Assembly (NCBI GenBank): GCA_021651055.1
Contig: JAJHOH010000001.1
Coordinates: forward strand, 3,348,001-3,412,000
Source of the DNA: Candidatus Manganitrophus morganii
Lineage (GTDB): Bacteria > Nitrospirota > Nitrospiria > SBBL01 > Manganitrophaceae
Direction: 5' to 3'
DNA: 64,000 nt
The notes below the pieces were generated by a model. The model was given only the letters and a program-made list of their open reading frames with translations, was not told the DNA's origin and ran no database searches. The translations under genes were made by a program, and so were the position numbers. This document shows, piece by piece, positions 18,461 to 59,215 of this stretch; positions within the stretch are counted from its first letter, which is position 1, and each line of letters begins with the position of its first letter.

Positions 18461-18648
18461 TGTCGAGGCCACCCAAGAAAACAAAGATCAAATTGACACC
18501 TATCGCGATGCAAAACGCCAATATGTTGGCTTCTTTCGTCTGGAGCTCCGATTACCCGATACAAAATCACTTCAGAACCCGCGATATCCCATTAAGCCAA
18601 CCTGTGATCAAAATCCTGTCCACTCTTCTCAGCATTGAGGGCAATTAG
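18460..18648 (+). CDS. small protein overlapping the integrase stop (hypothetical)
   Basis: The ATG overlaps the integrase stop as TGATG, a common translational coupling. The 62-residue product begins MSRPPKKTKIKLTPIAMQNA and resembles no family I know. It is rich in polar residues with no membrane segment. The position suggests an accessory factor such as a small excisionase, but there is no clear helix-turn-helix, and it may be a chance frame. Confidence 0.3.
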   Translation: MSRPPKKTKIKLTPIAMQNANMLASFVWSSDYPIQNHFRTRDIPLSQPVIKILSTLLSIEGN

Positions 18649-18932
18649 TACATCCTGCCTGGAATAGTTGAGGGCCGGCACCTGGTCTTGATTCGTAGGA
18701 ATGTGACATCCGATTATGCGCTGAATTCCTGTAGTCGTCCTCCGTTATTAATCGAAGTCAGCGTATACCGTAGCTAAATGTTTTCCGTACCTCGATATTG
18801 TAGGTTTCAGATGGGAATTGATGCCGATACTAAATAGGAATGTCAGTGCCGGCGTAACTGCGGGAAAGAAGCCTTCCACGCAATAAAATGTATTGACCTA
18901 TAGGGCACTCTGGTATATCGTAGCCCGGAGAT
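18649..18932. other. gap before the second recombinase, with one copy of a 15-bp repeat
   Basis: About 280 bases, no gene. CTGGTATATCGTAGC at 18910-18924 recurs at 46415-46429 in the same orientation. A related GTATACCGTAGC lies upstream at about 18771. TTGACC and the TATATC inside the repeat could also act as a promoter for the recombinase gene. Confidence 0.45.
18910..18924. repeat. candidate att repeat, left copy
   Basis: CTGGTATATCGTAGC, nine bases before the recombinase start, is exactly repeated at 46415-46429. A 15-bp match can arise by chance in 64 kb. Its interest comes from flanking a recombinase on one side and the right border of the defence cargo on the other. Confidence 0.35.
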
Positions 18933-32717: not shown

Positions 32718-34017
32718 GCGCTTGCACCCGGTTGAGATCAGCCTCGGTTACTCGCCGCTGCCCGGTAACGCATTCGTGGATCAGCGACTTGCGGTAGGAA
32801 ATGAGAGTTTTAATCTGGGCCTCGATGCCGCTCGTGATCTGAGCGACCTGCGCAAGGCTTTCATCGAGAAACTGGCAGATCGCCCGCTGCTCCTGAATTG
32901 ACGGCAGTGGGATTGGGAACAACCCGACTTTTGTAGAGTTCGTACTTGCTAAGTTTGTTGTCCGTTTGCCTGTCGCCTCAAAGTAGTCTCGTCCGTATTG
33001 GGATGCTGTAAGATAGGCCAAGAATGCAGAAAGCAGCTTGTGTCCAAGACAGCGGACTGCGAAGATGTGATTCTGGTGCAGACAGCCTGAGATTTCCCCG
33101 CTCCAAACCGTTCCCCGACCGAGCTTGTCCAAATCGCCACCTTCAGTCATGAGTACATCACCAGGACGCAACTCAACTCGGCGAGCGACATGGAGCGGCA
33201 CCTCAATCAGCGTCACGTCGTCCAAGCTCAAGTGCCCGTCCTGGACATTGGCAACTCGAAGATAAGGACGTTTGATGGTCGGCCCTTCATATTCCTTTCC
33301 GAGGGTCAACCCAGTCTGAATCTGGGACACCCTCTTCAGACTTACCAACTCCCAGTGAGTTGGCACTTCCTTCATCCAAGTATTTCCAGTTTGACGCAGA
33401 TCGGTGTGTGTCTGAAGGCCTCGAGTTACAACACGCGTTATCGTCGCATTACGCAAGGCGTCTAGTGGTTCAAGCTGGCGGCGTTTGGCAGTCACTGCCG
33501 CATCAATTGCAGCACAACTCGCATCCAGAAACGTCACAATCCGCTCTTGCTCCGGCAACGGCGGGAGCGGGACATTAAACTGAGCTAGCTGCGTCGGCCA
33601 ACTGACGCGGGGCATCTTCGCTCCATATGCGAGCGCGTTGCAGCGCTCAATGAACCATCGTGACGCTAGACAGTAGAAAAGGAAGCGACTGGCAATTCTC
33701 TCCGGCTTGAATGCCAGAATCTCGCCTGTGCACTTCCCGTCGAAGTCCGCTGTGTAGTACTTCTCGAGATATGGTCTGAGCTTGCCAAAGAGAACGTCGC
33801 CCTTTCTAAAAATGGTGACGGCGCTTTCGACTTCCAGCGTACAGCGCCGACCCAATATCCTACCCGTGCCCGATTCAATGTCTTCGAGTTCGAGGTAGTC
33901 CTCTTCCCGGCTCTCCTCAGCGGTCTTTTCGTTTCGCAGCGCAACAACGTCTTTGAGGCGGTCGAAAGTCCAACCATTGGGAAGCTGATCCAGAAAGCTG
34001 TCGTGTTGGCCGATCAC
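32710..34017 (-). CDS. hsdS: type I restriction-modification specificity subunit
   Basis: 435 residues from a GTG that overlaps the hsdM stop (GTGA). Two target-recognition domains are separated by conserved helices: the first repeat ends PLPPLPEQERIVTFLDASCAAID and the second IPLPSIQEQRAICQFLDESLAQV. Each TRD would read half of a bipartite DNA site; the site itself cannot be predicted. It starts NGWTFDRLKDVVALRN, typical of the family. Full length, so both half-sites should be recognised. Confidence 0.95.
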   Translation of the reverse strand: MIGQHDSFLDQLPNGWTFDRLKDVVALRNEKTAEESREEDYLELEDIESGTGRILGRRCTLEVESAVTIFRKGDVLFGKLRPYLEKYYTADFDGKCTGEILAFKPERIASRFLFYCLASRWFIERCNALAYGAKMPRVSWPTQLAQFNVPLPPLPEQERIVTFLDASCAAIDAAVTAKRRQLEPLDALRNATITRVVTRGLQTHTDLRQTGNTWMKEVPTHWELVSLKRVSQIQTGLTLGKEYEGPTIKRPYLRVANVQDGHLSLDDVTLIEVPLHVARRVELRPGDVLMTEGGDLDKLGRGTVWSGEISGCLHQNHIFAVRCLGHKLLSAFLAYLTASQYGRDYFEATGKRTTNLASTNSTKVGLFPIPLPSIQEQRAICQFLDESLAQVAQITSGIEAQIKTLISYRKSLIHECVTGQRRVTEADLNRVQAHG

Positions 34018-35990
34018 CCTGCCAATCCCTCCAGCATTTTCTCCGCCTCCTTCTCCAGCTTCCAGAACTCTGCAAGCAGGTCCTTCGTAGGCCTGGGCGG
34101 CTGGTAGCGGTAGAAGTACTTATTCGGTAGAATCTCGTATCCAAGCTGTGGGCTGTCTTCCCAACGGATGATCGGTTTGGCGATTTCGCGCTTGAGAAAT
34201 GTCTCAATATCCTCCCCGTGAGGGATGTACTCGTCGTCCTTCACGTAGTTGCGGTGCGTCCATTCGACTGAGACGATTTTCGGTCCATCTTTTATCAGCG
34301 TCTTAAACTTCTCGGCCGCGTTGTCCTTCGGGCCGAGGGTGAAGGCCTCCATCTTCTCGGCATTGCCGACTTTTAGCCGCATGTGGAAGGTCAGGTCGCA
34401 GTCGTAGAACTCCTGCTCCTTCTTCAAGTTTGCGGCGGTGAATGCCTTTTCGTAAGGCTCCGTAATTGTCGCCGGCTTGTCGTGCTCGTCGAATTGCCAG
34501 AAGACGACGTTGACCTTGTGGTAGGCAAAGTCCTCACGCCGGAATATCTTTACCCGCTCATCGGCGTAGCCCTTGTTCCAGCCCTCCCGGTATCGTTCTT
34601 CGATCCATGCGCGATGCACGTCTGTGATGCGGTTACGCTTGTTGCCAAAGGACTTGGGTTCCTTTTCATACTGCTGGCGGCCGTCAATCAGCATCACCAG
34701 GCCCTTGTGCAAGGCCGGTTTTTCGTTCCGGAGCAGCCAGATGTAAGTGAAGATGCCCGTGTTGTAGAAGAGCTGGTCGGGAAGCATGACAATGGCGTCG
34801 AGCCAGTCGTTTTCCAGGATCCAGCGGCGGATCTCACTTTCGCCAGACCCGCAGTCGCCATTACTAAGGGGTGAACCGTTGAAGATGATGGCGATTCGGC
34901 TCGTACCCTTCTCCGGTGCTTTCATCTTGGCGAGCATGGTTTGTAGAAAGAGCAGCGCGCCGTCGTTCACCCGCGGCATGCCGGCCTGATAGCGGGTCTT
35001 CTCCAACTTGCGCGCCTCGGTTTCATAACCGTCTTTACCACCCCAGGTCACGCCGAATGGAGGATTCGAGAGCATGAAGTCGAAGCGGAATTTGGACTCG
35101 GGCAACTGATCGCCGGGTTCGTTACTGCCGCGTTCATGGGGAATCAGGGAGTTGCCGAGATACACCTTGGCTTGCTGATCGTTCTTGATCAACAAGTCTG
35201 CCTGGCAAATGGCATAATTCGTGGGTGAAAGCTCCTGGCCGTGAACGGTGACGTATTTCTCGACGTTCGCTTTCTTTTCCGTCGTGGTGGCGCGGTCGAG
35301 CAGGTGTTCCTTAGCTACCGACAGCATACCGCCTGTCCCGCAGGCGGGATCGTAGATGGACATATGCCGATCGGGTATAGGCATATCGAGCAATTCGACC
35401 ATTAACCGAATCACCTCGCGCGGAGTGAAGTGTTCTCCGGCCTCCTCTCCGCTCTGCTCTGAAAATCGCCGCAGCAATTCTTCATAGATATAACCCATCT
35501 CCAGCGGCGACAGCATGTCCGGCCCAAGTTCCAGTTCCTTGTACTGGTTTAAAATCGGTGCGAGGCGATTATTCTTAACCATTAACCCGATAGTGGCCCG
35601 GTAATTGAAGTGTTCGATGATGTCGTCGACGTTCTTCGAGAATCCATTAATATACGCTCGAAAATTCTCTTCGAGCAGCGCGTGGTCTTCCTCATAGACC
35701 TTCCTAAGCGTCCAGCCGGTTTTGTTTGAGAACGGCGCCGTACTGATTTCCAGGCCCTTCACCAGCTTCGTGAGTTCCTTCTCGGTCAGTTTTGGTCGTT
35801 TCGCGAGCACTTCGGCCACCTTGCTCGCGCGCCATTTAACGAGCACGCACTCCAAGCGGCGAATCACGATGATCGGCAGGATGACGTTCTGGTACTCATA
35901 GGCCTTGAACTTGCCACGCAGACGCTCGGCGGATTTCCAGATCTCGTCAGCGAGGTTGTCGAGCTTAGGCTTATTGAGTGAAAGAGACAT
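34014..35990 (-). CDS. hsdM: type I restriction-modification methyltransferase subunit
   Basis: 658 residues, an N6-adenine methyltransferase. The N-terminal helical domain (LADEIWKSAERLRGKFKAYE) is followed by EHFTPREVIRLM and SAM motif I DPACGTG (214-220), then catalytic motif IV NPPF (309-312). It is longer than the E. coli protein and ends in a coiled tail (LLAEFWKLEKEAEKMLEGL). First gene of the operon hsdM-hsdS-hsdR, with 4- and 8-bp overlaps. The 625 bp upstream are free for a promoter. Confidence 0.95.
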   Translation of the reverse strand: MSLSLNKPKLDNLADEIWKSAERLRGKFKAYEYQNVILPIIVIRRLECVLVKWRASKVAEVLAKRPKLTEKELTKLVKGLEISTAPFSNKTGWTLRKVYEEDHALLEENFRAYINGFSKNVDDIIEHFNYRATIGLMVKNNRLAPILNQYKELELGPDMLSPLEMGYIYEELLRRFSEQSGEEAGEHFTPREVIRLMVELLDMPIPDRHMSIYDPACGTGGMLSVAKEHLLDRATTTEKKANVEKYVTVHGQELSPTNYAICQADLLIKNDQQAKVYLGNSLIPHERGSNEPGDQLPESKFRFDFMLSNPPFGVTWGGKDGYETEARKLEKTRYQAGMPRVNDGALLFLQTMLAKMKAPEKGTSRIAIIFNGSPLSNGDCGSGESEIRRWILENDWLDAIVMLPDQLFYNTGIFTYIWLLRNEKPALHKGLVMLIDGRQQYEKEPKSFGNKRNRITDVHRAWIEERYREGWNKGYADERVKIFRREDFAYHKVNVVFWQFDEHDKPATITEPYEKAFTAANLKKEQEFYDCDLTFHMRLKVGNAEKMEAFTLGPKDNAAEKFKTLIKDGPKIVSVEWTHRNYVKDDEYIPHGEDIETFLKREIAKPIIRWEDSPQLGYEILPNKYFYRYQPPRPTKDLLAEFWKLEKEAEKMLEGLAG

Positions 35991-46862: not shown

Positions 46863-47074
46863 TCTTGACCTTTTTTCATTCTTTTCTGCCAACCTTTTGC
46901 CACCGTAGTCTAGGCGGGAAGAGAGTTATAAAGATACTGCTATCTCCAGTCCATAAGTCCTTTCCGATCTCATGAGTCATAGAGGGATGAAACATTATCG
47001 TCACCTAGACGCTGGATTGGTCGATCCCGGATCCTCATGCCGTCTTCTTTTTTTTTGTTCGACCGCTGATGGTA
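46863..47074. other. short gap, nothing recognised
   Basis: A run of nine T residues lies near 47048-47056 without a convincing stem. No gene. Confidence 0.4.
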
Positions 47075-47317
47075 TCAACGGGCCCAGCGCTCCGCCGGTT
47101 TTCTAAATTGAGGTGTCCGAAGGGTGGCGCCAACCATTGATACACCCTTTTCCATCTCTTGAAACGTCTGATCAATTCGCGCTGGGATTAGCTTGTCTTC
47201 TATGTCTCCGAGGGTGTCGGCCGACACCAAGGCACAGGCAATATTCTTTATGAGAAGTATAAAACCGATGACATAAGCCAAGACGATCAACCCAAAAACA
47301 AAGTATAGGTTCAACAT
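47075..47317 (-). CDS. small single-pass membrane protein, sigma54-controlled
   Basis: 80 residues with one strong N-terminal membrane helix (about 4-26, YFVFGLIVLAYVIGFILLI) and a short soluble tail containing IDQTFQEMEKGV. No family recognised. AAGGAG lies 7 bases before the ATG. A sigma54 promoter (47411-47427) is about 95 bp upstream, and two palindromes resembling activator sites lie a further 100 bp away. It is probably a target of the adjacent NtrC-type regulator, perhaps in an envelope response; that role is inference. Confidence 0.7.
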   Translation of the reverse strand: MLNLYFVFGLIVLAYVIGFILLIKNIACALVSADTLGDIEDKLIPARIDQTFQEMEKGVSMVGATLRTPQFRKPAERWAR

Positions 47318-47410
47318 GGGATTCTCCTTCTTAGTGAATCGTTCAGGTTTTTAGATCAGCGCCAGGATTGTTCCGATGAGATGGCACTCTACAAACACAT
47401 GACAGGGATG

Positions 47411-47427
47411 CAGCAAGTACGATGCCA
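47411..47427 (-). promoter_or_regulatory. sigma54 promoter for the small membrane protein
   Basis: On the minus strand TGGCATCGTACTTGCTG matches the consensus TGGCAC-N5-TTGCW, with GG and GC exactly 10 bases apart. The start point would be near 47400, giving a leader of about 80 bases. Confidence 0.75.
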
Positions 47428-47524
47428 GAATTGGAATAAATCAAGACAAGAATCGATCCGATTGAAATCGAGTAAGAAATATGGACTTTCTTTTCTTAGA
47501 TCCTGATGGGATTGAACAACCAAT

Positions 47525-47557
47525 GGGGGAAATCCCAAAAAACGGGGCGATTGCCCC
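47525..47557. promoter_or_regulatory. two enhancer-type palindromes
   Basis: GGGGGAAATCCCAA (47525-47538, right half degenerate) and GGGGCGATTGCCCC (47544-47557) have centres 19 bp apart and lie about 110 bp upstream of the sigma54 promoter. The same pattern occurs three times at 51232-51286. Confidence 0.65.
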
Positions 47558-47758
47558 ATCGGAAGATACGCGCGATCTATAAACACCGCCTAAAATTCAT
47601 CTCCCATTGTGGAATTCCTGGCATCCACATTCTAAAAAGGAACGACGTTCACGCCGCAAGGATGGAAGAGCCCGATTATCTACTTTGTCGGATGCGATGG
47701 GTAGCCGGAAAAGAGGACCAGATTAACAATAATTCGTATCGGTTCCTTGGGGGTCGCT
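47558..47758. other. gap downstream of the NtrC-type gene
   Basis: About 200 bases, no gene. A plus-strand frame through here (47506-47823) overlaps the binding sites and the regulator's 3' end and is not coding-like. Confidence 0.4.
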
Positions 47759-49171
47759 CTATGAAGAGGAAGAAGGTTCAATCTTGTATTTATCCATTCG
47801 GTATCGAAGGGTATCACGGGTAAGTCCGAGTAATTTCGCCGCATGGGTGACGTTCCAAGAGGTCTGTTCCAGCGCTTGGAGGACGAGGTCGCGCTCGACA
47901 TCTTCAAGCGAAACACCCTCGCGTGGAAGGAGAAGACGTCTTCCCCCTTCCTTATCTTGGTCCCTGTTTATTTTGACGAGACCGGGGAGAAGTGCAAGTT
48001 GGTCCGGTTCAATGGTCTCTTGTCGGGAGAGAAGGACGGTCTGCTCGATCATATTCCGAAGCTCGCGGACATTCCCAGGCCATGAATAGTTGAGAAGCGC
48101 TTTTTCGGCCTCCGGGCTGAAGGCCATTTCTTGTTTTCCGTAGCGCCGGGATTGGATTTTTAAAAAATGCTTTGCGAGAAGGAGGATATCGCTTCCGCGG
48201 CTGCGCAGCGGCGGCAGTTCCAGATGGATGATCCGAAGCCGGAAGAAAAGGTCCCGCCGGAACCGTCCTTGACGGACCGCTTCTTCCAGAGATTGGTTCG
48301 TGGCTGTGATGATCCGGACGTCCACTTTCTGTTCTCGAAGATTTCCAAGACGGCGGATTACTTTATCCTCAAGTGCTTTGAGCAGCTTGGCCTGAAGGGA
48401 GATGTCGATTTCCGCGATCTCGTCTAAAAAGAGAGTCCCGCCGTCTGCGGCCTGAAACAGGCCGATCTTCCGCTCTTTTGCGTCGGTGAAGGCCCCCCGC
48501 TCATATCCGAAGAGCTCGGCTTCCAGGAGCTGGGTCGGAATCGAGGCGCAATTAACCTCGATGAAAGGAGCATTCTTTCTCGGACCGTTGTAATGAAGGG
48601 CCCGGGCCACCAGCTCTTTCCCGGCGCCGGTCTCTCCGGTAATCAGGGCGGCGGGCGGCTCTCCCTCTGTTAATTTCCGCTCCGATTCGATGATCTGCTC
48701 GATCTGATTTTTCAATGAGCGCATCGGCGGTGATTCCCCCAGAAGGGCGGAAAAAGTGCTTTCAACGGCCTCTTTTTCCCGGTAATAGGAGAGGGTCCCC
48801 TCCAATCGATTTTGTCCTACCGCTTTGTCGAGCAGGACTTTAAGTTTGGCCAGGACCAACGGCTTGTTCACAAAGTCATAAGCGCCGGATTTCATTGCGT
48901 CGACGGCCGTTTCGATGTTTCCATGTGCCGTAATGATGACCACCTTCACCTGCGGGTCACAATCCCTTATGCGAGAGAGGGCTTCGAGGCCGTTCATTCC
49001 CGGAAGCTGCAGATCGAGTAAAATGACGTCTGGCTTAAATGTTTCAAGCTGCTGGAATCCCTCCTCTGCGCTCTCGGCGATCCGGACTTCGTACTCGTGT
49101 CGTTCGAGATACGTCTTCATGTTTTTCGCCAGCGTTGTTTCATCTTCGATGATGAGAATGGCATAAGACAT
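47759..49171 (-). CDS. NtrC-family sigma54-dependent response regulator (I)
   Basis: 470 residues from the ATG at 49171; the open frame extends another 98 codons upstream through unrelated debris. The receiver (1-120) has Asp53 (VILLDLQLPG). The AAA+ domain has Walker A GETGAGKE, the sigma54-contact loop written GAFTDA in place of GAFTGA, and Walker B GGTLFLDEIAEI. The C-terminus ends in a Fis-type helix-turn-helix (WNVTHAAKLLGLTRDTLRYRMDKY). It lies downstream of a histidine kinase on the same strand, its likely partner. The five palindromes in this region are candidate targets, though the second NtrC-type protein is a rival. Confidence 0.92.
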   Translation of the reverse strand: MSYAILIIEDETTLAKNMKTYLERHEYEVRIAESAEEGFQQLETFKPDVILLDLQLPGMNGLEALSRIRDCDPQVKVVIITAHGNIETAVDAMKSGAYDFVNKPLVLAKLKVLLDKAVGQNRLEGTLSYYREKEAVESTFSALLGESPPMRSLKNQIEQIIESERKLTEGEPPAALITGETGAGKELVARALHYNGPRKNAPFIEVNCASIPTQLLEAELFGYERGAFTDAKERKIGLFQAADGGTLFLDEIAEIDISLQAKLLKALEDKVIRRLGNLREQKVDVRIITATNQSLEEAVRQGRFRRDLFFRLRIIHLELPPLRSRGSDILLLAKHFLKIQSRRYGKQEMAFSPEAEKALLNYSWPGNVRELRNMIEQTVLLSRQETIEPDQLALLPGLVKINRDQDKEGGRRLLLPREGVSLEDVERDLVLQALEQTSWNVTHAAKLLGLTRDTLRYRMDKYKIEPSSSS

Positions 49172-49253
49172 CGATTTGCCCCGTCCTGTGTAGAGAAATA
49201 GTTCTTCCGACCCCTTCTTTGCCTCCAGGTCGAGGTATCCACCCGTGCTGCGA

Positions 49254-49640
49254 TTATTGCTTGGCAAGCACGGGTCCGACCCACACACCCTTCGGCTTTG
49301 TAGTATAGAAAGGTTTAAAAACTTTGTCCATTTGTTCTTTGGGTTGAATGCAGCCGCCAACTGAAGATCCTTCCACTTCAACCCCCGGTCGAACCAGTGC
49401 CCTGCTGTTGGGCGAAGATTCCAGTGATACGACAGCTTCTCCTTTTTGACCGTCCTGAATAACAATCCAGTTGTGTCCTAAGACGACAAAAAGAAGACCC
49501 ATTCCCTTGGCGATATCAATGTGTATAATCCGGTTGTTCAACTGTTCTCCAAACTCTGATCTGTTGCTGCGATGTGAGATCTTATTCAGGGAGTGTGCAC
49601 TGACTTTCTCATCCTCTATGATAAAGACGGTATAAAACAG
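49254..49640 (-). pseudogene. mosaic of gene scraps between kinase and regulator
   Basis: One continuous minus-strand frame strings together three unrelated pieces. VFIIEDEKVSA looks like the start of a receiver. NNRIIHIDIAKGMGLLFVVLG (49540-49470 region) looks like the start of an acyltransferase-3 membrane enzyme. PKEQMDKVFKPFYTTKPKG (about 49345-49285) repeats a piece of the neighbouring kinase (PKEQIDKVLKPFYTTKPKG). None is a complete domain. It reads as duplication and deletion debris. Confidence 0.6.
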
Positions 49641-49643
49641 GAT

Positions 49644-50990
49644 CTACCCGGTCACTGGAAGTTGGAGAAAAACGGTTGTTCCGACCCCTAATTTGCTTTC
49701 CAGTCGAAGCGTCCCTCCATGCCGTTCGATGATCCGTTTCGCCAGTGAGAGTCCAACCCCCATTCCCTTCGGCTTCGTCGTGTAGAACGGTTTGAGGACT
49801 TTGTCTATCTGCTCTTTGGGGATGCCACCCCCGGTATCTTTGATCAAGATCTCCATCCGATCGGCACTTTTCTCGTATCGGCTGATCACTGTCAATTCTC
49901 CCCCCTGGGGCATGGCGTCGAGCGCGTTGGCAATCAGACTGATGAAGACATGGCGCATCAGAGCCTCGTCCGTGTGGACCAGGGGAGAGGATGGTTCCAA
50001 AGTCAGCGTCGATTTCACGTTCCGCTTTGCCATCTCGCGATCAAGAGAGTCGAGGGTCGCTTGGATTAAATCGTTGATCCGGATGGAGGCGGGAATCCCG
50101 TTCGGTGGTTTGGAATAGACGAGCAGTTCCCGGATCCAGTCCTCGATCCGGTCTGTCTCATGAATGATCTCCTCCGCGGTAACCCGAAAAGGGGGATTTT
50201 CTTCCAAAGCGATCTCCGCGGAGGAGCGGATCGAGGCCAGCGGGTTCCTGATGCCGTGGGCGACGGCCGAGGCCATCTCGCCTATCGCGGCCATTGTTTC
50301 CGACTCAACGAGTTGTTCCTGTTGTCGGCGGATGACCCGGGCCGCCCGGCGGACGATCCAATAAAGAGAGCCGTAGAGAAAGATGCCTCCTAAGCTGGCG
50401 CTCAACCAGACTAGCTGATTTCCACGTTGAATGGCATGGAACAGAGTTAGCGGAACCTTATAGACTTCCACCACGCCGACGACCTTGTTCTCGGTAAGGT
50501 TCCAAATCGGGATATAGATTTCAACGAAAAAAGGAACCTCCTGATCGAAAACATGCTCCGGCTTGGATGATTTCCCGGAAGTCCCGCTTGTGACGGCCAG
50601 TCTCCCCGAGAGCGCCGTCTCCAATTGGGGGTTGGGGTTGAAGCGATGGCCGATGAAGCGATCGTCGTCCGACCAGAGGATCGATCCGTTGCTGTTGTAG
50701 ACGTTGGCGCGGACCACCTCCGGCATCGTTGCAATCTGCTTGAAGAAGGCCTCGAAAACGGTTCTCGTCTTCCCGGGATCATCCGTCTCGAAATAGCTGC
50801 GTGTATTCTCCGCTTGCGCGATCGTCTGGACAAACTCCATCGTCACGACGGCGTCGCGCTGGAGCATGTTGCGCGTGAGAAAGCTCGAGAGAAGCAAAGA
50901 AGAGACGGCTGTGATCAGGCCGACGGAGAGGAAACTCAGAAGAGCAAACCAACGAAGGAGGTTAAATGGTCGTTTCTCTTCAATCGGCAT
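49644..50990 (-). CDS. membrane sensor histidine kinase (I)
   Basis: 448 residues. One membrane helix at about 14-38, a periplasmic sensor of about 150 residues, a second helix at about 191-214, then HisKA with His245 (AVAHGIRNPLASI) and HATPase_c with KDTGGGI and GMGVGLSLAKRI. There is no HAMP or PAS. It is the likely partner of NtrC-type regulator I, which follows on the same strand after 470 bp of debris. A sigma54 promoter about 115 bp upstream and three shared palindromes suggest positive autoregulation. Confidence 0.9.
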   Translation of the reverse strand: MPIEEKRPFNLLRWFALLSFLSVGLITAVSSLLLSSFLTRNMLQRDAVVTMEFVQTIAQAENTRSYFETDDPGKTRTVFEAFFKQIATMPEVVRANVYNSNGSILWSDDDRFIGHRFNPNPQLETALSGRLAVTSGTSGKSSKPEHVFDQEVPFFVEIYIPIWNLTENKVVGVVEVYKVPLTLFHAIQRGNQLVWLSASLGGIFLYGSLYWIVRRAARVIRRQQEQLVESETMAAIGEMASAVAHGIRNPLASIRSSAEIALEENPPFRVTAEEIIHETDRIEDWIRELLVYSKPPNGIPASIRINDLIQATLDSLDREMAKRNVKSTLTLEPSSPLVHTDEALMRHVFISLIANALDAMPQGGELTVISRYEKSADRMEILIKDTGGGIPKEQIDKVLKPFYTTKPKGMGVGLSLAKRIIERHGGTLRLESKLGVGTTVFLQLPVTG

Positions 50991-51115
50991 GAGGCTTAAA
51001 TCGAAGAATGGGTGAATTCATTTCATATCAATCCAAAATATCAAATCAATCTAACCGATTATTTTCGGTGAGTCAATGCATGCCTCGGTTGCCGGCGATC
51101 ATCTGATGATGCGGT

Positions 51116-51132
51116 AGCAATTCATATTCCAA
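51116..51132 (-). promoter_or_regulatory. sigma54 promoter facing the kinase gene
   Basis: On the minus strand TTGGAATATGAATTGCT has GG and GC 10 bases apart and a TTGCT -12 box. The -24 box lacks the usual C after GG. The predicted start point near 51104 gives a leader of about 115 bases to the kinase ATG at 50990. Confidence 0.55.
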
Positions 51133-51231
51133 ATACGATTTTGCCTTCCGGAAGTCCCTCATTGGTCGAAACTCCATCGGTTTATATCCGACCGCAGTAA
51201 AAAAAACTTCTCTCCGGTGTCGATCCACGAT

Positions 51232-51286
51232 GGGGGATTTCCCCCCTGGTGCTGGGGCAAATCCCCCACGACGGGGGAATTGCCCC
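51232..51286. promoter_or_regulatory. three enhancer-type palindromes between divergent promoters
   Basis: GGGGGATTTCCCCC (51232-51245), GGGGCAAATCCCCC (51254-51267) and GGGGGAATTGCCCC (51273-51286) have centres 22 and 19 bp apart, about two helical turns. They are about 100 bp upstream of a sigma54 promoter on each side. With the pair near 47.5 kb they give a consensus GGGGSAWWTSCCCC. This is what NtrC-type upstream activator sites look like. Confidence 0.7.
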
Positions 51287-51371
51287 TGTCCGCCTTCTCT
51301 CCATGACTAAAGCGGCGCTCTATTTACGTTATGTTTTCAAACGAATAGAACTTTTCCCGCCTCTCCATGTC

Positions 51372-51389
51372 GCGGCATCATATTTGCGT
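51372..51389 (+). promoter_or_regulatory. sigma54 promoter for the receiver/kinase/NtrC operon
   Basis: GCGGCATCATATTTGCGT has GG (51374-51375) and GC (51386-51387) exactly 10 bases apart, with GGCAT and TTTGC boxes. The start point near 51398 gives a leader of about 57 bases to the first start codon. Confidence 0.65.
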
Positions 51390-51454
51390 TTCGCAATGGC
51401 GCCCGGATAGGGATTGTAGGTCGGGATAATTTCAGTGCGCGTGAGAAAACGATC

Positions 51455-51826
51455 TTGAGAAATCGGATTTTGGTCATCGAGGATGAATTGATCCTTCAGA
51501 AGAACATCGCGATTAGTCTGCGCCGCGAGGGATATGAGGTCATGGAAGCGGGGAGCGGGGCGGATGCTTGGAAAATATTGAATGTTGCTTCAGTCGATCT
51601 TCTTATCCTGGATGTCGGTCTTCCCGATTATGACGGCCTCAACCTGCTCAGGGAGATTCGAGCGGTTCACCCTCGACTCCCGGCCATCGTTATGACCGCT
51701 CGTGATACTCCGGAAGTGAAAAACAGGGCATTCGAATCGGGCGCGGCGGCCTTTCTCGCAAAGCCCATTATTCTCCGGGCATTAAAAGCCAAGATCCGCA
51801 ACCTTGAAGAAAAAAGCTCTTGCTGA
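51455..51826 (+). CDS. single-domain response regulator
   Basis: 123 residues from a TTG at 51455; no other start is available. A complete receiver with IEDE (9-11 region), phospho-acceptor Asp53 (LILDVGLPD), Thr in MTARD and Lys in LAKPI. No output domain. It is the first gene of a plus-strand operon with a histidine kinase and NtrC-type regulator II. Its stop lies just ahead of the kinase start. It is likely a phosphate sink or relay for that kinase. Confidence 0.85.
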   Translation: MRNRILVIEDELILQKNIAISLRREGYEVMEAGSGADAWKILNVASVDLLILDVGLPDYDGLNLLREIRAVHPRLPAIVMTARDTPEVKNRAFESGAAAFLAKPIILRALKAKIRNLEEKSSC

Positions 51827-51858
51827 CAACCAGGAAGCAAACAATAAATGAGAATCGC

Positions 51859-53838
51859 ATGACCCCTCCGGTCCAACAGTCTTCCCGATTCGGTTCGATC
51901 AACCAGCCGACTTTCCGCAGTCGCCTTTTTTTTAAGTTCATCATTCCCTATATTTTTTTAATCGTGACCGTGTTTTCATTCAGCGGATGGCTTTTCTTTT
52001 CCTCTGCAAGCGAGGCGCTCGATGCGGAATTGTCCCGCCGGTTGGTGGGGGTGGCCGATTTGATTGCTCGGACGGTGAATCCCGCCTTTCTGGTGAGAAT
52101 TCAGCCGGGGGATGAAGAGACCTCTCTTTATCGGCTTATCCTGGAGGAACTGGAAAAGATTCGAGAGGCCACCCAGGTCAAAGACATCCATCTCTTTGAT
52201 CGACAAAACAGGGTGATCGTCGATTTAGACGGAACGCAGACGATCGGAGAAGAGGATCTTCTTCTCCAGATCGACGCTTATGAACTTGACCAAGTATGGC
52301 GCGGACGTGCGGTCTCATCCGTTCTTTACCGGGGACGAGACAGCCGATTCTATAAGGCCGGGTATGCCCCTTTGAGGGATGAACAAGGACGGATCATTGC
52401 GGGGGTCGGGGTTGAGGTAGGGGTAGATTTCATGCAGATCATGGATCGGATTCGCCGCCAGTTCATCGGAATCACTCTGGCCAGCGGGGGATTGATTATC
52501 CTAATCAGCTTTTTTCTCTCCCGCTCGATGATCCGTCCGATCCAAATCCTGACCTCCGCCACCGAGCAGATCGGAAATGAGAGAGGCTACCCGCAAGTCA
52601 ATTTGAAGCGAAACGATGAGCTGGGCGACCTCGGAAGACATTTTAACCGGATGATTGGGCAGATCCAAACGAAGGATGCGCTGCTTCGCCGGATGTACGA
52701 TGAAGAGCGCGCCAGGGCGGAGATTCTCGAAGGATACAGTCAGACGCTTCTGAAAAGCATCCCGAGCGGAGTTTTGGGGGTGAATCTCAAAGGTGAGATC
52801 ACCTCGTGCAACCCGGCGGCGGAGAACATCCTGGGTCTCTTTTCATCGGTCCTTCTGGATCAGCCGGTTCAGGGGCGGCTGGGTGTCTGCTCCCCCTTGG
52901 AAAAAATCATCATGATCGCAGTGACGACCGGGAGCGAGGCGGCCTGGGAAGAGTTCCCGGTCGAAGATCCCTCCAAGGGAAAACGATGGATCGGTGCGAT
53001 GGCTTCCCCGATTAAAGACCAGGGCGGAAGAGAGATCGGCGCGACAGCCGTTTTTGCTGATCTCACCGAGGTGAAAAATCTTCAGGAGGAGGTCACGATG
53101 AAGCGGCAGATGGCGCTTCTCGGTGAGCTCTCCGCCGGGATGGCGCATGAAATTCGAAATCCGCTCGCCGCAATTCAGGCCTTGGGCGAACTGCTCAGCC
53201 GCAGGGTCAAGGGGAGAAGATCCCACCCGGACGGGACGGGCGCGTCCGATTCCGATGAGAGAGAGCTTGAAGAACTGAGTCGAGACCTGGTCGCGGAAAT
53301 CAGGCATCTAAATCGGTTTGTCACGGAATTTCTGATTTATGCGCGAATGCCGCTCCTCCATTTTGAGAAAACGGATCTCCGGGAGATTGTCGACGCGGCC
53401 CTTTCATTGGCCGCTCCCTCGGGAAAACCGGAGGAGATCGTCGTTCGGAATAAAATCCCGGAGTCGTTCCCCAAGGTGTCTGTCGACCCGATTGAATTTC
53501 GGCGGGTCCTCCTCAACCTCATTCAGAATGCGTTTCAGGCAATGGGAAAAGAAGGAGAACTGCGGATCGAAGCCGAGATCGTCGACCCTTATTTCTTCCT
53601 TCGTATCTCCGATACAGGCCCGGGGATTCCCTCTGCACACCGGGAGAAGATCTTTCGCCCCTTTTTTACGACGAAGCAGGGAGGGACGGGACTGGGCCTT
53701 GCGATTTCCGAGCGGATTGTCCGTGGACATGGAGGAAGTCTGACTTTTGAAACAAGCGAAGGGAAGGGAACGGTTTTCTCCATCCAGATGCGTCTGGAGA
53801 AATCTACAGCGGAAGTTCACAATTCCATTATGGGGTAA
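51859..53838 (+). CDS. membrane sensor histidine kinase (II) with HAMP and PAS
   Basis: 659 residues from the ATG at 51859; a TTG at 51820 would add 13 residues and overlap the previous gene. The first membrane helix is at about 22-48, a periplasmic CACHE-like sensor at about 50-205 and the second helix at about 210-232. HAMP, PAS (GVLGVNLKGEITSCNPAAENILGLF), HisKA (GELSAGMAHEIRNPLAAI) and HATPase_c (SDTGPGI, GTGLGLAI) follow. The partner is the NtrC-type regulator starting 3 bp after its stop. Layout resembles ZraS/AtoS-type kinases of envelope or polysaccharide control. Confidence 0.92.
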   Translation: MTPPVQQSSRFGSINQPTFRSRLFFKFIIPYIFLIVTVFSFSGWLFFSSASEALDAELSRRLVGVADLIARTVNPAFLVRIQPGDEETSLYRLILEELEKIREATQVKDIHLFDRQNRVIVDLDGTQTIGEEDLLLQIDAYELDQVWRGRAVSSVLYRGRDSRFYKAGYAPLRDEQGRIIAGVGVEVGVDFMQIMDRIRRQFIGITLASGGLIILISFFLSRSMIRPIQILTSATEQIGNERGYPQVNLKRNDELGDLGRHFNRMIGQIQTKDALLRRMYDEERARAEILEGYSQTLLKSIPSGVLGVNLKGEITSCNPAAENILGLFSSVLLDQPVQGRLGVCSPLEKIIMIAVTTGSEAAWEEFPVEDPSKGKRWIGAMASPIKDQGGREIGATAVFADLTEVKNLQEEVTMKRQMALLGELSAGMAHEIRNPLAAIQALGELLSRRVKGRRSHPDGTGASDSDERELEELSRDLVAEIRHLNRFVTEFLIYARMPLLHFEKTDLREIVDAALSLAAPSGKPEEIVVRNKIPESFPKVSVDPIEFRRVLLNLIQNAFQAMGKEGELRIEAEIVDPYFFLRISDTGPGIPSAHREKIFRPFFTTKQGGTGLGLAISERIVRGHGGSLTFETSEGKGTVFSIQMRLEKSTAEVHNSIMG

Positions 53839-53841
53839 ACA

Positions 53842-55206
53842 ATGATCCGAATGTTGATTGCGGAAGACAAAGAGGCGATGCGGCGATCCCTGGTCCGTCT
53901 TTTCTCTGAAAAAGGGCATGACGTCATCGAGGCGGGAAGCGGCGCGGAGGCGCTGGAGCGCTTTAACGAGATGGAGATCGATCTGGTGATTACCGATCTT
54001 CAGATGGGGGTGATCGACGGGCTCCAGGTTCTTCGCGAGGTTAAAAAAAGGGCACCGCAGACCCCGGTCTTGATGGTCACGGCGTTCGGAACGGTGGAGA
54101 GCGCCGTGGAGGCGATGCGGCAAGGGGCGTTTGATTATCTTCTCAAACCGTTTTCCCTGACCGAGATCGAAGCGCGGGTGGAGAAGGCCATAGAGCAACG
54201 AAGGCTCCTGACGGAAAACAGCTACCTGCGAGAAACACTCAATCGCGCCGTCGGCCGGATGATCGGCCGTTCGGACCGGATGCAGCAGATCTATCGACTC
54301 ATAGAGAAGGTGGCCCCTCATCCCTCACCGGTTTTGATTCTCGGAGAGACCGGAACGGGAAAAGAGATGGTGGCGAGGGGGATCCACGAAATGGGCCCGC
54401 GCAAAGCCGGTCCGTTTATTGCGGTCAACTGCGGGGCGATCCCTGAGAATTTGCTGGAGAGCGAACTCTTTGGATATGAGAAAGGGGCCTTCACGGGGGC
54501 CGCGGCCCAAAAGAAAGGCCGGTTGGAGCTGGCCGAAGGGGGGACTCTTTTTCTGGATGAGGTCGGAGAGCTTCCCCTTCCCCTTCAGGTGAAACTCCTC
54601 CGATTTTTACAGGAGAGGGAAATTCAGCGGGTCGGCGGAACAAAAACCATCCGGGTCGACGTCCGGTTGATCGCTGCAACAAACCGCGATTTAAAAAGGG
54701 AAATCCAGGAGCATCGCTTCAGAGAAGACCTTTATTACCGAATTCGGGTGATTGAAATCAATCTCCCCCCCTTGAGAGAACGGCATGGAGATATACCGGA
54801 ATTGACGGCGTACTTCTTGCAAAAGTTCAGTCGTGAGCTTCATAAGAGCCTCGAAATGCTCCCGGAGGCGCTCGACCTGCTGACCCTCTACGCCTGGCCC
54901 GGGAACGTGCGGGAGTTGGAGAATGTCATCGAACGGGCTGGCGTTCTTGCAGAGGGGGAGATCATTAAGGCGGGCGATCTTCCTCCGGAGCTCCAACTGG
55001 TTTCAACCCCTGCGGGATCGAATGGGGAGTCGACCGAGTTAGGCCTGACCGAGCGCTTGGAGATGTTAGAGCGTGACATTATCAAAAAGACCCTGGATGA
55101 GACGGCGGGAAATCAGACACAAGCGGCCAGGATGCTCCGGCTGCATCGCAGCTCGCTTCAGTATAAAATGCGCAAGTATGGGCTGTTGGATGAGGGGAGG
55201 GTTTAA
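53842..55206 (+). CDS. NtrC-family sigma54-dependent response regulator (II)
   Basis: 454 residues. The receiver has Asp52 (VITDLQMG). AAA+ motifs are GETGTGKE, an intact GAFTGA loop, and GGTLFLDEVGEL. The C-terminal Fis-type helix-turn-helix is NQTQAARMLRLHRSSLQYKMRKYG. Unlike regulator I, the sigma54-contact loop is canonical. It starts 3 bp after the kinase stop and overlaps the next gene by 17 bp, so the operon includes the coiled-coil and TPR genes. Either regulator could own the palindromes at 51232-51286; this one would then autoregulate its own operon. Confidence 0.93.
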   Translation: MIRMLIAEDKEAMRRSLVRLFSEKGHDVIEAGSGAEALERFNEMEIDLVITDLQMGVIDGLQVLREVKKRAPQTPVLMVTAFGTVESAVEAMRQGAFDYLLKPFSLTEIEARVEKAIEQRRLLTENSYLRETLNRAVGRMIGRSDRMQQIYRLIEKVAPHPSPVLILGETGTGKEMVARGIHEMGPRKAGPFIAVNCGAIPENLLESELFGYEKGAFTGAAAQKKGRLELAEGGTLFLDEVGELPLPLQVKLLRFLQEREIQRVGGTKTIRVDVRLIAATNRDLKREIQEHRFREDLYYRIRVIEINLPPLRERHGDIPELTAYFLQKFSRELHKSLEMLPEALDLLTLYAWPGNVRELENVIERAGVLAEGEIIKAGDLPPELQLVSTPAGSNGESTELGLTERLEMLERDIIKKTLDETAGNQTQAARMLRLHRSSLQYKMRKYGLLDEGRV

Positions 55207-56071
55207 AAGATTTTCGCGTTACGGTGTCATTTTAGCTATTTTGTGGTTCGCCATCGGGATCTCCTCCGGAATTTCTCACGCAGTGGATCGGTCTGATCCG
55301 CTTCTTGCAGAGATCCACGCCCTGGAGACGACGTTCCAGCAGGTATTGAATCAACTCGATCGGTCGGCGCGCCAATCCGAGGAGGTCTCGCGCGAGGTCC
55401 AAGCCCTCAAGTCGCAAAAAACGGCCGGCGTCCTTCATCAGATCCGGCTCGAAGGGCTTCTCTCCCGCTTGAGGGAAATCCTCCTCGATCGGCGGGAGTT
55501 GAAGAAACTGGAGCAGACGCTCCAATCCGAGCGTGAGAAAAAGGTCGAGCTTCTCTATGATTTGATGGGAGAGGAGATCAATTCTCTCCTTCGCGAGGCG
55601 GAGGGATCGATGCAACGGGGCGAGGGGCAGCGGGCCGACCAAATTCATCGCTCGGTGCTGGCCAAGATGCAGGCGCGCGAGGCGCTGCGGCGGCCCCGTT
55701 CGCTTCATATCGCCGCGCTTCCCGAGATTGAGGTGCCCGATCTGGAGGGGGCCTCCCCGGTCGAGATGAGGGAGATGGCGGTGTTGCTTAGAAACGACGC
55801 GGAAACACTCGACAAAAAACGGAAAGAAATAGAGGAAGAGAGACGGCTTCTTCTGGAAGAACTCAAGATCAAACGGACCCTGGCCCGAGTTCAGGGATTC
55901 CCCAGGGGGATCGAAAAAAAGCCGATCGACCGCCAGATCCAACTCCTGGAAGAGAGACTGGCCGTCCTCGATCAGGCGGTTGAGCGTTATGCAGAGCGGG
56001 TCGGGGCTCTATTTACCCTGTCGGACGTGATGCTGGCAAGATCGAAACGGGAAGAAGATCGTTTAAAGTAA
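55190..56071 (+). CDS. exported coiled-coil protein
   Basis: 293 residues from the ATG at 55190, inside the end of the regulator gene. A signal peptide (VILAILWFAIGISSGISHA) is followed by almost continuous charged heptads (about 30-160 and 205-290) interrupted by a segment rich in Pro (RRPRSLHIAALPEIEVPDLEGASP). It is likely a periplasmic, rod-like structural protein. The frame is open 39 codons further upstream, but that would read through the regulator's 3' end. No enzyme motif. It is co-transcribed with a TPR lipoprotein, which suggests an envelope complex. Confidence 0.75.
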   Translation: MRGGFKRFSRYGVILAILWFAIGISSGISHAVDRSDPLLAEIHALETTFQQVLNQLDRSARQSEEVSREVQALKSQKTAGVLHQIRLEGLLSRLREILLDRRELKKLEQTLQSEREKKVELLYDLMGEEINSLLREAEGSMQRGEGQRADQIHRSVLAKMQAREALRRPRSLHIAALPEIEVPDLEGASPVEMREMAVLLRNDAETLDKKRKEIEEERRLLLEELKIKRTLARVQGFPRGIEKKPIDRQIQLLEERLAVLDQAVERYAERVGALFTLSDVMLARSKREEDRLK

Positions 56072-56082
56072 GGGCGGCGGAG

Positions 56083-56748
56083 ATGTTGCAGCGGGTGTTT
56101 CCATCAGAATTACCACTCGAACGCTTTTCCTGGGGACGCAAGGTTGCCACCTTGTTCTGTTCCTGGCTTGTCCTCGCCTCATGTGCCTCCAGTTTACACC
56201 TGCGGGGGCTGGAAGCAACCGCTCGGGAAGAGCATGGTGAGGCGGTTCGGTTTTATCTGGAACATCTGAAAAACCGTCCGGACGATCTCCGCGCCAGAAA
56301 CGATCTGGGCGTCTCCTATTTGCGGAGCGGAGAGTATGATCTCGCCTTTCTCGAATTTCAGAAGGTCCTCGCCGCCGATCCGCGATATGTCCGGGCTTAT
56401 TACAACATCGGATTGGTCTACAACTTCAAAAATCTTCCCGACGAGGAATTCAACGCCTATCTGCAGGCCTTGGAGATCGATCCGGGACATCTCCCCACCC
56501 GGTTAAACCTCGCCCATCTTTATATCGAACGGGGAGAGATCGCAAAGGCCAAAGAGATTTATGAAGAGGTGCTTCGTAATCATCCAAACCAGCCACGCGC
56601 CCTCTATAACCTCGCCCTGCTCTACGATCAGGATGGGAAAGGAAAGGATGCCTTCGCACTGCTTGAGCGGTTTTTACAGCAGGAACCCGATCCGGAATGG
56701 CGGCAAGAGGCTGAGGAACATTTAAAGCGGTTGAGAAAAGCGCACTAA
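56083..56748 (+). CDS. TPR-repeat lipoprotein
   Basis: 221 residues. The lipobox LASC has Cys34 as lipidation site after a hydrophobic stretch (ATLFCSWLVLA). About four TPR units follow (for example ARNDLGVSYLRSGEYDLAFLEF, AYYNIGLVYNFKN, TRLNLAHLYIERGEIAKAKEI, ALYNLALLYDQDGKGKDAFALL). It probably serves as a scaffold on the inner face of the outer membrane, or in secretion of a polysaccharide. It starts 11 bp after the coiled-coil gene with GGCGGAG upstream. Confidence 0.85.
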   Translation: MLQRVFPSELPLERFSWGRKVATLFCSWLVLASCASSLHLRGLEATAREEHGEAVRFYLEHLKNRPDDLRARNDLGVSYLRSGEYDLAFLEFQKVLAADPRYVRAYYNIGLVYNFKNLPDEEFNAYLQALEIDPGHLPTRLNLAHLYIERGEIAKAKEIYEEVLRNHPNQPRALYNLALLYDQDGKGKDAFALLERFLQQEPDPEWRQEAEEHLKRLRKAH

Positions 56749-56819
56749 GGAATTGAAGCTCCCAGCCGCAAGCAGCGTGGAATCTTCGACCCGAAAGGAG
56801 AAAACATCTATTTGTATTC

Positions 56820-56879
56820 GCGCGTCTAACCCGCGCCCCAAGGGGCGAGGAATGCGACGCGCGTGCGTGTTCATTTTTT
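56820..56879 (+). terminator. terminator after the TPR gene
   Basis: Nested stems GCGCGTC/GACGCGC and CGCCCC-AA-GGGGCG are followed ten bases later by six T residues. It separates the operon from the convergent UPF0016 gene and touches its stop codon. Confidence 0.5.
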
Positions 56880-57150
56880 ACCTGATCGTTTGGAACAACA
56901 TCCAAAATCCGATTAAAACGAATCCTGATCCGGAGATTGCCTTCAACACGATGGGCGAGACGATCGAGGAGATTTTTCCTCCGAAAATGACGGCAACGGC
57001 CGTGCTGAGAACCAGCGCCCCTGCGGAAGCGAAGAAAATCCCGGTCTTACCGACATTCTGATCTGTCGCATAGAAAAGCGTCGCAAGCTGCGTTTTGTCC
57101 CCCAGTTCGGCCAGAAAGACAGTTATGAAAATAATGACGAGTTTCTGCAT
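56878..57150 (-). CDS. UPF0016 / GDT1-family cation transporter, half-size
   Basis: 90 residues with three hydrophobic segments and one ELGDKTQL motif (residues 15-22). The family, which includes Mn2+ or Ca2+ exporters, normally has two such motifs in about 190 residues. This protein is one repeat, so it should work as a homodimer or with a second half elsewhere. Manganese export is a reasonable guess from family knowledge. It stands alone and convergent with the envelope operon. Confidence 0.75.
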   Translation of the reverse strand: MQKLVIIFITVFLAELGDKTQLATLFYATDQNVGKTGIFFASAGALVLSTAVAVIFGGKISSIVSPIVLKAISGSGFVLIGFWMLFQTIR

Positions 57151-57220
57151 TCCCGGCTCCTTCGTTAATAATCATGCCGCAATGTGGCCTCATGACGTCT
57201 TGGTTTTGTTCCGTATCCAA

Positions 57221-57550
57221 TCACCGATGACGTTTTCGAGCGCGATCATCATAGCGATAATCTTCGTCCCGGGTCAAGATTCCCTGATCGTCACGCCCCC
57301 GGCTTCGAAGAGAACTTTTTCGATCTCCTTTGTAAGCCCGATGCTCTGAGGCTTCATCACGCGAACCCTCCTCAGGGCTTTTAATTCCAGATGGGGTGCT
57401 GTCTGATTGACTGTCATTGACAGAGATCTCTCCCCGCAATTTCACCCCTGCCTGAGCATCGTCCCGTCCGGCCGAAAAACAAGAAACCGATCCTAAGAGT
57501 GCGATGAAAAATCCTCCTGCCAAGATGACTGAATAATTAAATCGATTCAT
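57221..57550 (-). CDS. small exported Arg/Asp-rich protein (hypothetical)
   Basis: 109 residues. A signal peptide (VILAGGFFIALLGSVSCFSAG) precedes a very polar, probably disordered tail ending DEDYRYDDRARKRHR. The Cys at the end of the signal might be lipidated, though the lipobox is poor. GGGAGAA lies 8 bases before the ATG, which supports a real gene. No family. Confidence 0.6.
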   Translation of the reverse strand: MNRFNYSVILAGGFFIALLGSVSCFSAGRDDAQAGVKLRGEISVNDSQSDSTPSGIKSPEEGSRDEASEHRAYKGDRKSSLRSRGRDDQGILTRDEDYRYDDRARKRHR

Positions 57551-58056
57551 TATCTTTTCTCCCGAATGATTTTACCAGTGTTAACACACAGGAACGATGC
57601 AACTGAGATGCCGCTATCAATTCATAAAAACGAGAATGATTGCGGTTATCGACGAAATTTTTTCTTAGGTTCGGTGGGAGTTTTCACCCAATGTTGGGTT
57701 AAATCCCCCAAAAGGATTGCTGCCGCTGTTGGCTCCGGCAATGATGAACCAATCTATCGCCGGTTCTTTAAGGGGGAAAACCGGCGACCACTGCCGGAAT
57801 CCCATCACCCCGCCGCCGGCATCCCCTTCACCGGGAATGTACCGCAGGGCGAGGAGATCGGTGTTGTAGAGCCGGGTCATCAATTTTTCTCTCTTTTTAG
57901 TTATCAATCGGTTCACCGCCCATTTTGAAGGAGGAAGCGCCGCTCCTGACGTCGATATTTTATCCCGGTTTGGAGATCGGCATACTGTTTGCTTTAGGGA
58001 TCTGTTCATCGACAATCACGGCGGATCTAATCTTACTTAAAATAAGGAGTGCAAAT
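57551..58056. other. gap, no confident gene
   Basis: A 72-codon minus-strand frame (57880-57665, MTRLYNTDLLALRYIPGEGD) has Gly-rich content but only a weak ribosome site. A 120-codon plus-strand frame opposite it is probably a shadow. Neither was called. Confidence 0.4.
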
Positions 58057-59169
58057 ATGAAAACACTTTTGAGGTTCTGGATGATGATCGTGATCGGACT
58101 GACCATCGCTGCCTGCGGCGGAGGGGGGGGCGAGGGGGGATCGGACGGAGGAGGAGCCGGAAACCCGACGTTGGGAATCTTATCGATTCAAAAATTGGGG
58201 GCGACGGCGATCCCCAATGAGAATGCGTCTTCAAAACCGGTTTTTGCGTCGAATCTTTTTGGAAAGGGATGGCGCTTGGGTCCGCGCCAGGCCTTCGCGC
58301 AGGCGGCGCCCTGCGTCTCCGATGCGCCGACCTCTTTTGCGGTTTCCGGCGGCAAGGTGTGGATCAACCAGGCCTATGCCATTGTCGATGAAGTCGAGTT
58401 CAACCGGGAACCGTCGAGCGCGACGAGCCCCGAGTTTGGCCCCTTCGCGCTCGACCTGACCAACACCGACGCCAACGTCGGAGAGGCGATCACGGTCGAT
58501 GTGCCGGAGGGGAATTACAGCAGCGTGAAGTATCGGATCAAACGGATCGAAGATGAGGCGATGCCGATCCTCAATGTAAGCGATGCCGCCCTTTTTCGGT
58601 CGAAGGTTCTCGATAACAATACGAAGCGGCGGCCGAGCGTCTGGGTCGAGGGGGTGATCGGTATCGGATCGGAGGCCGCGGGGTTCTCTTCTTGCACAAG
58701 TTTCATATTCGTCACCGATCATCGCTGGGAGGTGATCATTCCTTTCAGCGGGGGTGCCTCCAGTCAGCCGACGCCGGTCGATGCCGTTCTCCTTTTTGAT
58801 CTGTCGGGGGCGTTCAACGCAGCGCTGGCCGGATCGAGCGCGGAGGCCCTGTCGGCAGAGGTGGGACAGTGCTCTGCTGAAGTTGTCGATCGGGGCGAAT
58901 GCATGGGATCGGTCTATCTCGACGGCCGGACCAAGGATGAGCGTCACGGAACGCCTCTCGCAAAAATCATCACCGGCGAGTTTCCCAAGCATACGGAGGT
59001 CTTCGCTCAGTCCGCCACCGCCACGAGGGGATTTGACGACAATCCATCTGTCTCCGACATGGTGGAGAGCACCGCACAGGCGGGCACGACCGTCATCGAC
59101 GACAGCGCCGTGCGGGTGAGCGGCGACGACAACCCGTCCGTTTCGGACCTTGCCGAGACGCCTGGATAA
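58057..59169 (+). CDS. lipoprotein of unknown function
   Basis: 370 residues from the ATG at 58057, which has AAGGAG eight bases upstream; the frame extends 44 codons further without one. The lipobox is TIAAC with Cys20, followed by a Gly-rich tether (GGGGGEGG). The body is beta-rich (EFGPFALDLTNTDANVGEAI, VPEGNYSSVKYRIKRI) and resembles DUF4382-like surface proteins loosely. The motif DDNPSVSD occurs twice near the C-terminus. It is probably anchored in the outer membrane. Confidence 0.7.
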   Translation: MKTLLRFWMMIVIGLTIAACGGGGGEGGSDGGGAGNPTLGILSIQKLGATAIPNENASSKPVFASNLFGKGWRLGPRQAFAQAAPCVSDAPTSFAVSGGKVWINQAYAIVDEVEFNREPSSATSPEFGPFALDLTNTDANVGEAITVDVPEGNYSSVKYRIKRIEDEAMPILNVSDAALFRSKVLDNNTKRRPSVWVEGVIGIGSEAAGFSSCTSFIFVTDHRWEVIIPFSGGASSQPTPVDAVLLFDLSGAFNAALAGSSAEALSAEVGQCSAEVVDRGECMGSVYLDGRTKDERHGTPLAKIITGEFPKHTEVFAQSATATRGFDDNPSVSDMVESTAQAGTTVIDDSAVRVSGDDNPSVSDLAETPG

Positions 59170-59184
59170 ATCAACCTGTCACAG

Positions 59185-59215
59185 CCGGGCGGCGGGGAAT
59201 TCCCCCGCCGCCCGG
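59185..59215. terminator. very stable hairpin after the lipoprotein gene
   Basis: 13-bp perfect arms CCGGGCGGCGGGG and CCCCGCCGCCCGG with a 5-base loop. It starts 15 bp after the stop codon. No U-run follows directly (six T residues occur 28 bases on), so it may be a U-less terminator or an mRNA-protecting stem. Confidence 0.5.

Follow-up and report, generated by a model that had tools for sequence, protein, structure and literature searches.

A gene for a small predicted membrane protein in Candidatus Manganitrophus morganii as a probable sigma54-controlled output of an adjacent two-component system

The stretch of the Candidatus Manganitrophus morganii genome analysed here (64,000 nucleotides, hereafter the window) contains, at 47075..47317 on the minus strand, a gene for a protein of 80 residues, raising the question of whether its transcription depends on sigma54 and, if so, which of the activators encoded nearby would drive it. 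The reading frame is 80 codons long, starts with the ATG at 47317 preceded by AAGGAG, and encodes one strong hydrophobic stretch at the N-terminus, predicted to form a single transmembrane helix (Kyte-Doolittle over 19 residues, peak of 2.77 at residue 5), in agreement with the membrane protein of the preliminary description. The C-terminus bears the motif E-x-G-V-x4-A-T-L-R-x-P. Pfam and NCBIfam gave nothing above threshold for this protein family, and searches with it against profiles, families and solved structures did not reveal a function; identity with FixQ/CcoQ (PF05545), matched by 2 of 11 members with a non-significant best E value of 0.064, was rejected. As a guess, the protein might be a small accessory of the inner membrane or a partner in feedback. 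The gene had been called an orphan, a label that had to be dropped: it lies directly behind the genes of the histidine kinase HK1 and the response regulator RR1, and the three recur as a unit in the order HK1-RR1-small gene.

A strict sigma54 promoter element, TGGCATCGTACTTGCT, was located at 47427-47412 on the minus strand, 94 nt ahead of the small-gene ATG, confirming the promoter assigned to this gene before. It has GG at -24 and GC at -12 with 10 bp between them, follows the pattern TGGCAY-N5-TTGC, and is the single exact match to TGGCA-N6-TTGC on both strands of the window. Matches with one mismatch occurred 12 times in the window against 12.2 expected by chance, so that a loose sigma54 match carries little weight by itself. 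In the genome as a whole, strict TGGCAYN5TTGCT was present 25 times, compared with three occurrences of a reversed control pattern. A consensus scan of positions 47000-47800 gave no sigma70-like promoter.

Upstream of the promoter, two G5-N4-C5 palindromes are situated 19 bp apart from core to core: site 1 at 47544..47557 (GGGGCAATCGCCCC on the minus and GGGGCGATTGCCCC on the plus strand, matrix score 16.9) and site 2 at 47525..47538 (TTGGGATTTCCCCC and GGGGGAAATCCCAA, respectively, score 12.1). The promoter lies 114 bp below the midpoint of the two. The preliminary description had two copies of one palindrome with 19-bp spacing about 110 bp upstream; the spacing and the placing were borne out, while the equal quality of the copies was not, site 2 being the weaker with just three of five arm pairs complementary. 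A matrix built with 20 palindromes of promoters other than those of small genes ranked the two sites 5th and 9th among 63,987 window positions; since the training palindromes were drawn from this locus and its relatives and were picked after the pattern had been seen, these ranks are supportive and do not represent an independent probability. Loose GGGG/CCCC palindromes showed no clear excess in the window (35 vs 28 expected). No pair at 19-22 bp arose in 3.84 Mb simulated with a first-order Markov model, compared with three locations in the window, all of them 40-220 bp from a sigma54-like promoter. The significance thus comes from the joint arrangement of promoter and paired sites, not from loose counts of single elements. 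The strict form of the tandem palindrome was limited, in the own genome, to the region between the divergent regulator operons described below and the same place of a paralogous locus. The loose tandem pattern was detected in 31 of 295 genomes of the phylum sample, including the RR1-bearing OFTM211 (G011), mostly with G+C-rich cores, and is therefore by itself unspecific outside the genus. We know of no palindrome like G5-N4-C5 among NtrC-family sites. Inspection of the enhancer-promoter spacer by eye gave no good match to the IHF consensus in the window. An element TTTCAA(T), near 47460 in the window and approximately 40 nt above -24, is conserved in this spacer across the aligned small-gene copies and does not clearly represent an IHF site.

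RR1, encoded at 47759..49171 on the minus strand (the list of open reading frames starts it too early, at 49465), combines a receiver, a sigma54 AAA+ domain and a Fis HTH (Response_reg, Sigma54_activat and HTH_8), the domain set of an NtrC-family regulator. Its recognition helix is RDTLRYR, and it contains GAFTDA in place of GAFTGA, as do all eight RR1 sequences compared. HK1 (49644..50990, minus) is preceded by the sigma54-like promoter TGGAATATGAATTGCT at 51116..51131 on the same strand. The divergent RR / HK2 / RR2 operon has its own sigma54-like promoter, CGGCATCATATTTGCG (51373..51388, plus), and includes a second NtrC-type regulator, RR2 (53842..55206, plus), with GAFTGA and the helix RSSLQYK. 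Three strong palindromes (51232, 51254 and 51273) occupy 51232..51286 between these operons, with no strand assigned. A weaker pair, likewise without strand (57676 and 57696; 57676..57709), lies between a minus-strand secreted-protein gene and the gene of a lipoprotein-like secreted protein (58057..59169, plus), which is preceded by the sigma54-like promoter CGGCATACTGTTTGCT (57978..57993, plus); an element closely similar to it precedes the lipoprotein homologues in loci L012, L018 and L024. The lipoprotein-like protein is a likely further regulon member. RR1 and RR2 differ from the named members of the NtrC family, neither reaching the curated cut-off of any NCBIfam model among the best 25 shown; the PEP-CTERM/PrsR regulator (TIGR02915; 389.9 for RR1 and 434.4 for RR2, cut-off 502.6) and AtoC as a name for RR1 (395 vs a cut-off of 714) were rejected.

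Several other features of the window were recorded. About 470 bp (49172-49643) separate HK1 and RR1 and are missing from the paralogous locus; the ORF 49254-49541 within them has at its end a degenerate version of the C-terminus of HK1 (EQMDKVFKPFYTTKPKGVWVGP), indicating that a partial duplication or insertion split the two genes. Secreted proteins with acidic DDNPSVSD / RGDGSVDD motifs are encoded near sigma54-like promoters and palindromes in the window (57400-58060), in L024 (10461-13100) and in L012 (2500-3300), and are likely additional regulon members. Two tyrosine-recombinase-like genes and a type I restriction-modification-like cluster, judged from translations, at 17249-20018 and 29787-35990, hint at a genomic island.

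The two NtrC-type regulators were compared as possible activators with the help of RR1 homologues outside the genus, found in four of eight genomes of another family of the order at five loci. At two of these, L047 (Nitrospirota bacterium OFTM211) and L096, RR1 and a short receiver gene are followed by a clean pair spaced by exactly 19 bp and by a strict sigma54 promoter. The other three are without a clean pair: L099 has an altered GGG/CCC pair ahead of a TGGCATCGGATATGCT element (by eye), L098 a single palindrome and no visible promoter, and L097 no palindrome near the RR1 homologue. In L096 the pair is followed not by the small gene but by an ORF of 364 codons and, at a greater distance, a lipoprotein-like gene. 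Because the pair adjoins RR1 without the small gene outside the genus, the motif tracks RR1 and not the small gene. The helix RDTLRYR is present in every RR1 beside the motif and also in L098 and L099, with RHTLRYR in L097. From the tracking and the shared helix RR1 was concluded to be the likely activator of the small gene, via the paired sites. The promoter and sites could also be real and served by RR2 (53842-55206), whose operon, divergent from HK1-RR1, has the three strongest sites in front and which possesses the canonical GAFTGA; this is unlikely, since the pair adjoins RR1 without RR2 both in L096, where neither HK2 nor RR2 was among the ORFs to about 8 kb, and in L047 as far as the contig extends, since the small gene comes after RR1 in the copy units, and since an HK2 homologue is conserved at 78% in the motif-free genus genome G001 (72% complete).

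The assignment to RR1 is weakened by the poor palindrome at site 2, by the three of five outside loci without a clean pair, by GAFTDA in the place of GAFTGA, and by RR1 and RR2 sharing one locus. Judged on the sequence evidence together, the small gene is nevertheless quite probably the adjacent output of HK1-RR1, acting via two sites and a sigma54 promoter. In such a circuit HK1 would sense a signal and phosphorylate RR1, which would bind both G5-N4-C5 palindromes from the same face of the helix, approximately 114 bp upstream, and through DNA looping would bring the sigma54 polymerase at TGGCATCGTACTTGCT to the open complex. Using the three sites at 51232-51286, RR1 would further control the HK1-RR1 operon itself as well as the divergent RR-HK2-RR2 operon, and the lipoprotein gene near 58 kb is probably under RR1 too.

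The unit is not restricted to the window. The paralogous locus L012, at approximately 0.95 Mb on the same contig, encodes a 77-aa paralogue of the small protein (44% identity in the alignment) behind the promoter TGGCATCCGGTTTGCT with one strong and one weak palindrome site. Comparison of L012 1-12900 with window 47000-59200 indicated that most of the regulator locus is duplicated, including the lipoprotein, TPR and coiled-coil genes. The small gene was further found on four plasmid records of Candidatus Manganitrophus, from GAC1, GAC2 (two plasmids) and GAC4, with the taxonomy Nitrospirota; Candidatus Troglogloeales; Manganitrophaceae. The order HK1-RR1-small gene is the same in the window, in L012 and in the GAC2 plasmids unnamed2 and unnamed5; it is also kept in the GAC1 and GAC4 plasmids, but with the RR1 gene unannotated, and the GAC4 small gene is frameshifted. 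Two chromosomal copies together with the GAC plasmid copies suggest spread by plasmid and integration. Among six genomes of the genus, the close small gene was present in G000, G002 and G004 and absent from G001, G003 and G005 (72, 91 and 99% complete, respectively). The tandem palindromes were split in the same way, and so was HK1 at an identity of at least 85%, with a 47-48% homologue elsewhere in G000, G002 and G004 left out of the count.

Ten small-gene promoters were compared (window, L153, L154, L156, L012, L155, L020, L021, L019 and L022), which are not independent, L153/L154/L156 being near-identical to one another and L012/L155/L020 likewise. Strict TGGCAY-N5-TTGC was present in all ten, 58-112 bp ahead of the ATG. 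Two sites scoring at least 7 and spaced by approximately 19-20 bp were found in eight, and one good site with a very weak site 2 in the remaining two (L020 and L021). The distance from pair to promoter was 110-117 bp in the window, L012, L018, L019 and L022, and such conserved upstream sites at a steady distance agree with a sigma54-dependent promoter. The most telling case is L022 of G002, whose gene (for a protein of 76 aa, 18% identical) has sites scoring 22.1 and 16.8 and a strict promoter, on a contig with no HK1 match; L022 was found through its palindromes, whose presence there is a matter of selection, while the strict promoter and the family resemblance were not selected for. The preliminary description had named genomes keeping the gene without the sites as evidence against its proposal: no such case was seen among the close members, while the distant homologues treated below are without these palindromes. 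Its placing of the small gene in a local regulon is, apart from the orphan status, well supported by the promoter in ten of ten copies and the co-occurrence with HK1/RR1.

Conservation of this kind also bears on the idea that the promoter elements are relics, left from a duplication of the whole unit and its flanks, with the small gene as a decaying passenger. Some pairs are indeed low in synonymous relative to non-synonymous codon changes (2 vs 8 and 3 vs 4), and the GAC4 copy is frameshifted; however, the window and the GAC2 copy differ by 11 synonymous vs 7 non-synonymous changes, similarity over the 340 bp upstream is no lower than that of the coding sequence (68.5 vs 61.3% for L012, 65.8 vs 62.8% for L019), the remote L022 has retained both strong sites and the strict promoter on its contig without HK1, and the GAC1 and GAC4 units contain other broken genes, making sequencing error possible there, all of which renders decay improbable. 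Resemblance by chance, without sigma54 regulation, would agree with the near-chance window counts of one-mismatch sigma54 elements and loose palindromes, but is already very unlikely with the joint architecture missing from the simulated sequence and conserved ahead of paralogues just 43-46% identical in protein.

A profile of six small proteins was used to find further family members in the genus. Three of seven inspected distant members (in G000, G004 and G005) had TGGCATCTCYTTTGCT 55-61 bp ahead of the ATG and came immediately after the end of a gene for a Fis-type activator, with a whole PAS-like-AAA+-Fis arrangement in two (domains by eye); they look mutually orthologous and represent one case. 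In G005 the palindrome TGAAACATATATGTTTCA is located between the activator gene and the small-protein gene. No strict promoter was found in the other four inspected members, nor in four further matches. By eye, the G5-N4-C5 pair was present in none of the 11 distant matches, three of which combine a strict sigma54 promoter with a different enhancer. Of the 25 strict sigma54 promoters in the genome, six have as first gene a short ORF (<100 codons) with a hydrophobic stretch, namely those of the family members L122, L123 and L139 and those of L131, L138 and L141. In L145 (1794-4673), a further GAFTGA activator gene is followed at short distance by a strict sigma54 promoter and the gene of a small secreted protein.

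The motif E-x-G-[VI]-x4-A-x-L-x2-P unites most rows of the family alignment; the distant rows are 22-26% identical to the first row and, on this sequence basis, likely homologous to the 80-residue protein. The family was detected in 3 of 295 genomes of the phylum sample, one of them doubtful, and within this sampling seems limited to the genus; a match in G233 (L147, E 5e-4) was excluded, its context looking unrelated. Tentatively, this one-helix family (approximately 65-97 residues) may more than once have been taken up as the neighbouring sigma54 output of activators unrelated to each other, namely HK1-RR1 (G5-N4-C5 sites) and the PAS-AAA+-Fis activator (TGAAAC-N6-GTTTCA palindrome), its members acting as interchangeable small membrane effectors or feedback partners of separate sensory systems, spread in part by plasmids.

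The predicted circuit is of a known kind. NtrC-family activators (AtoC/ZraR/PrsR-like) resemble RR1 in having a receiver, AAA+ and Fis HTH, and their systems share the paired upstream palindromic sites, the apparent autoregulation and the target beside the regulator. In enterobacteria, ZraP is a periplasmic zinc-binding protein, and ZraSR-zraP is similar in that a sigma54 activator lies beside a small envelope protein and controls it; the window product differs in being a one-helix membrane protein, and no similarity to ZraP is claimed. Activator-target links were predicted, as here, from sites co-occurring with sigma54 promoters in the Desulfovibrio vulgaris regulome, in which the largest group of promoters was less than 100 nt from the closest site (PMC4641369). 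A term search of the main text of that paper gave no occurrence of the GGGG motif (PMC4641369), and a literature search for the genus name together with sigma54 found no paper.

Sigma54 control of the small gene is a genuine and sound prediction of a known circuit kind, with an undescribed small protein family as the target. It provides a testable regulon, with motif, activator and targets, for a genus with chemolithoautotrophic manganese oxidation, and brings to light a small-protein family overlooked by Pfam and NCBIfam. If its recurrence with different activators is real, it would raise the question of why a tiny membrane protein is the fixed output of several sensory systems.
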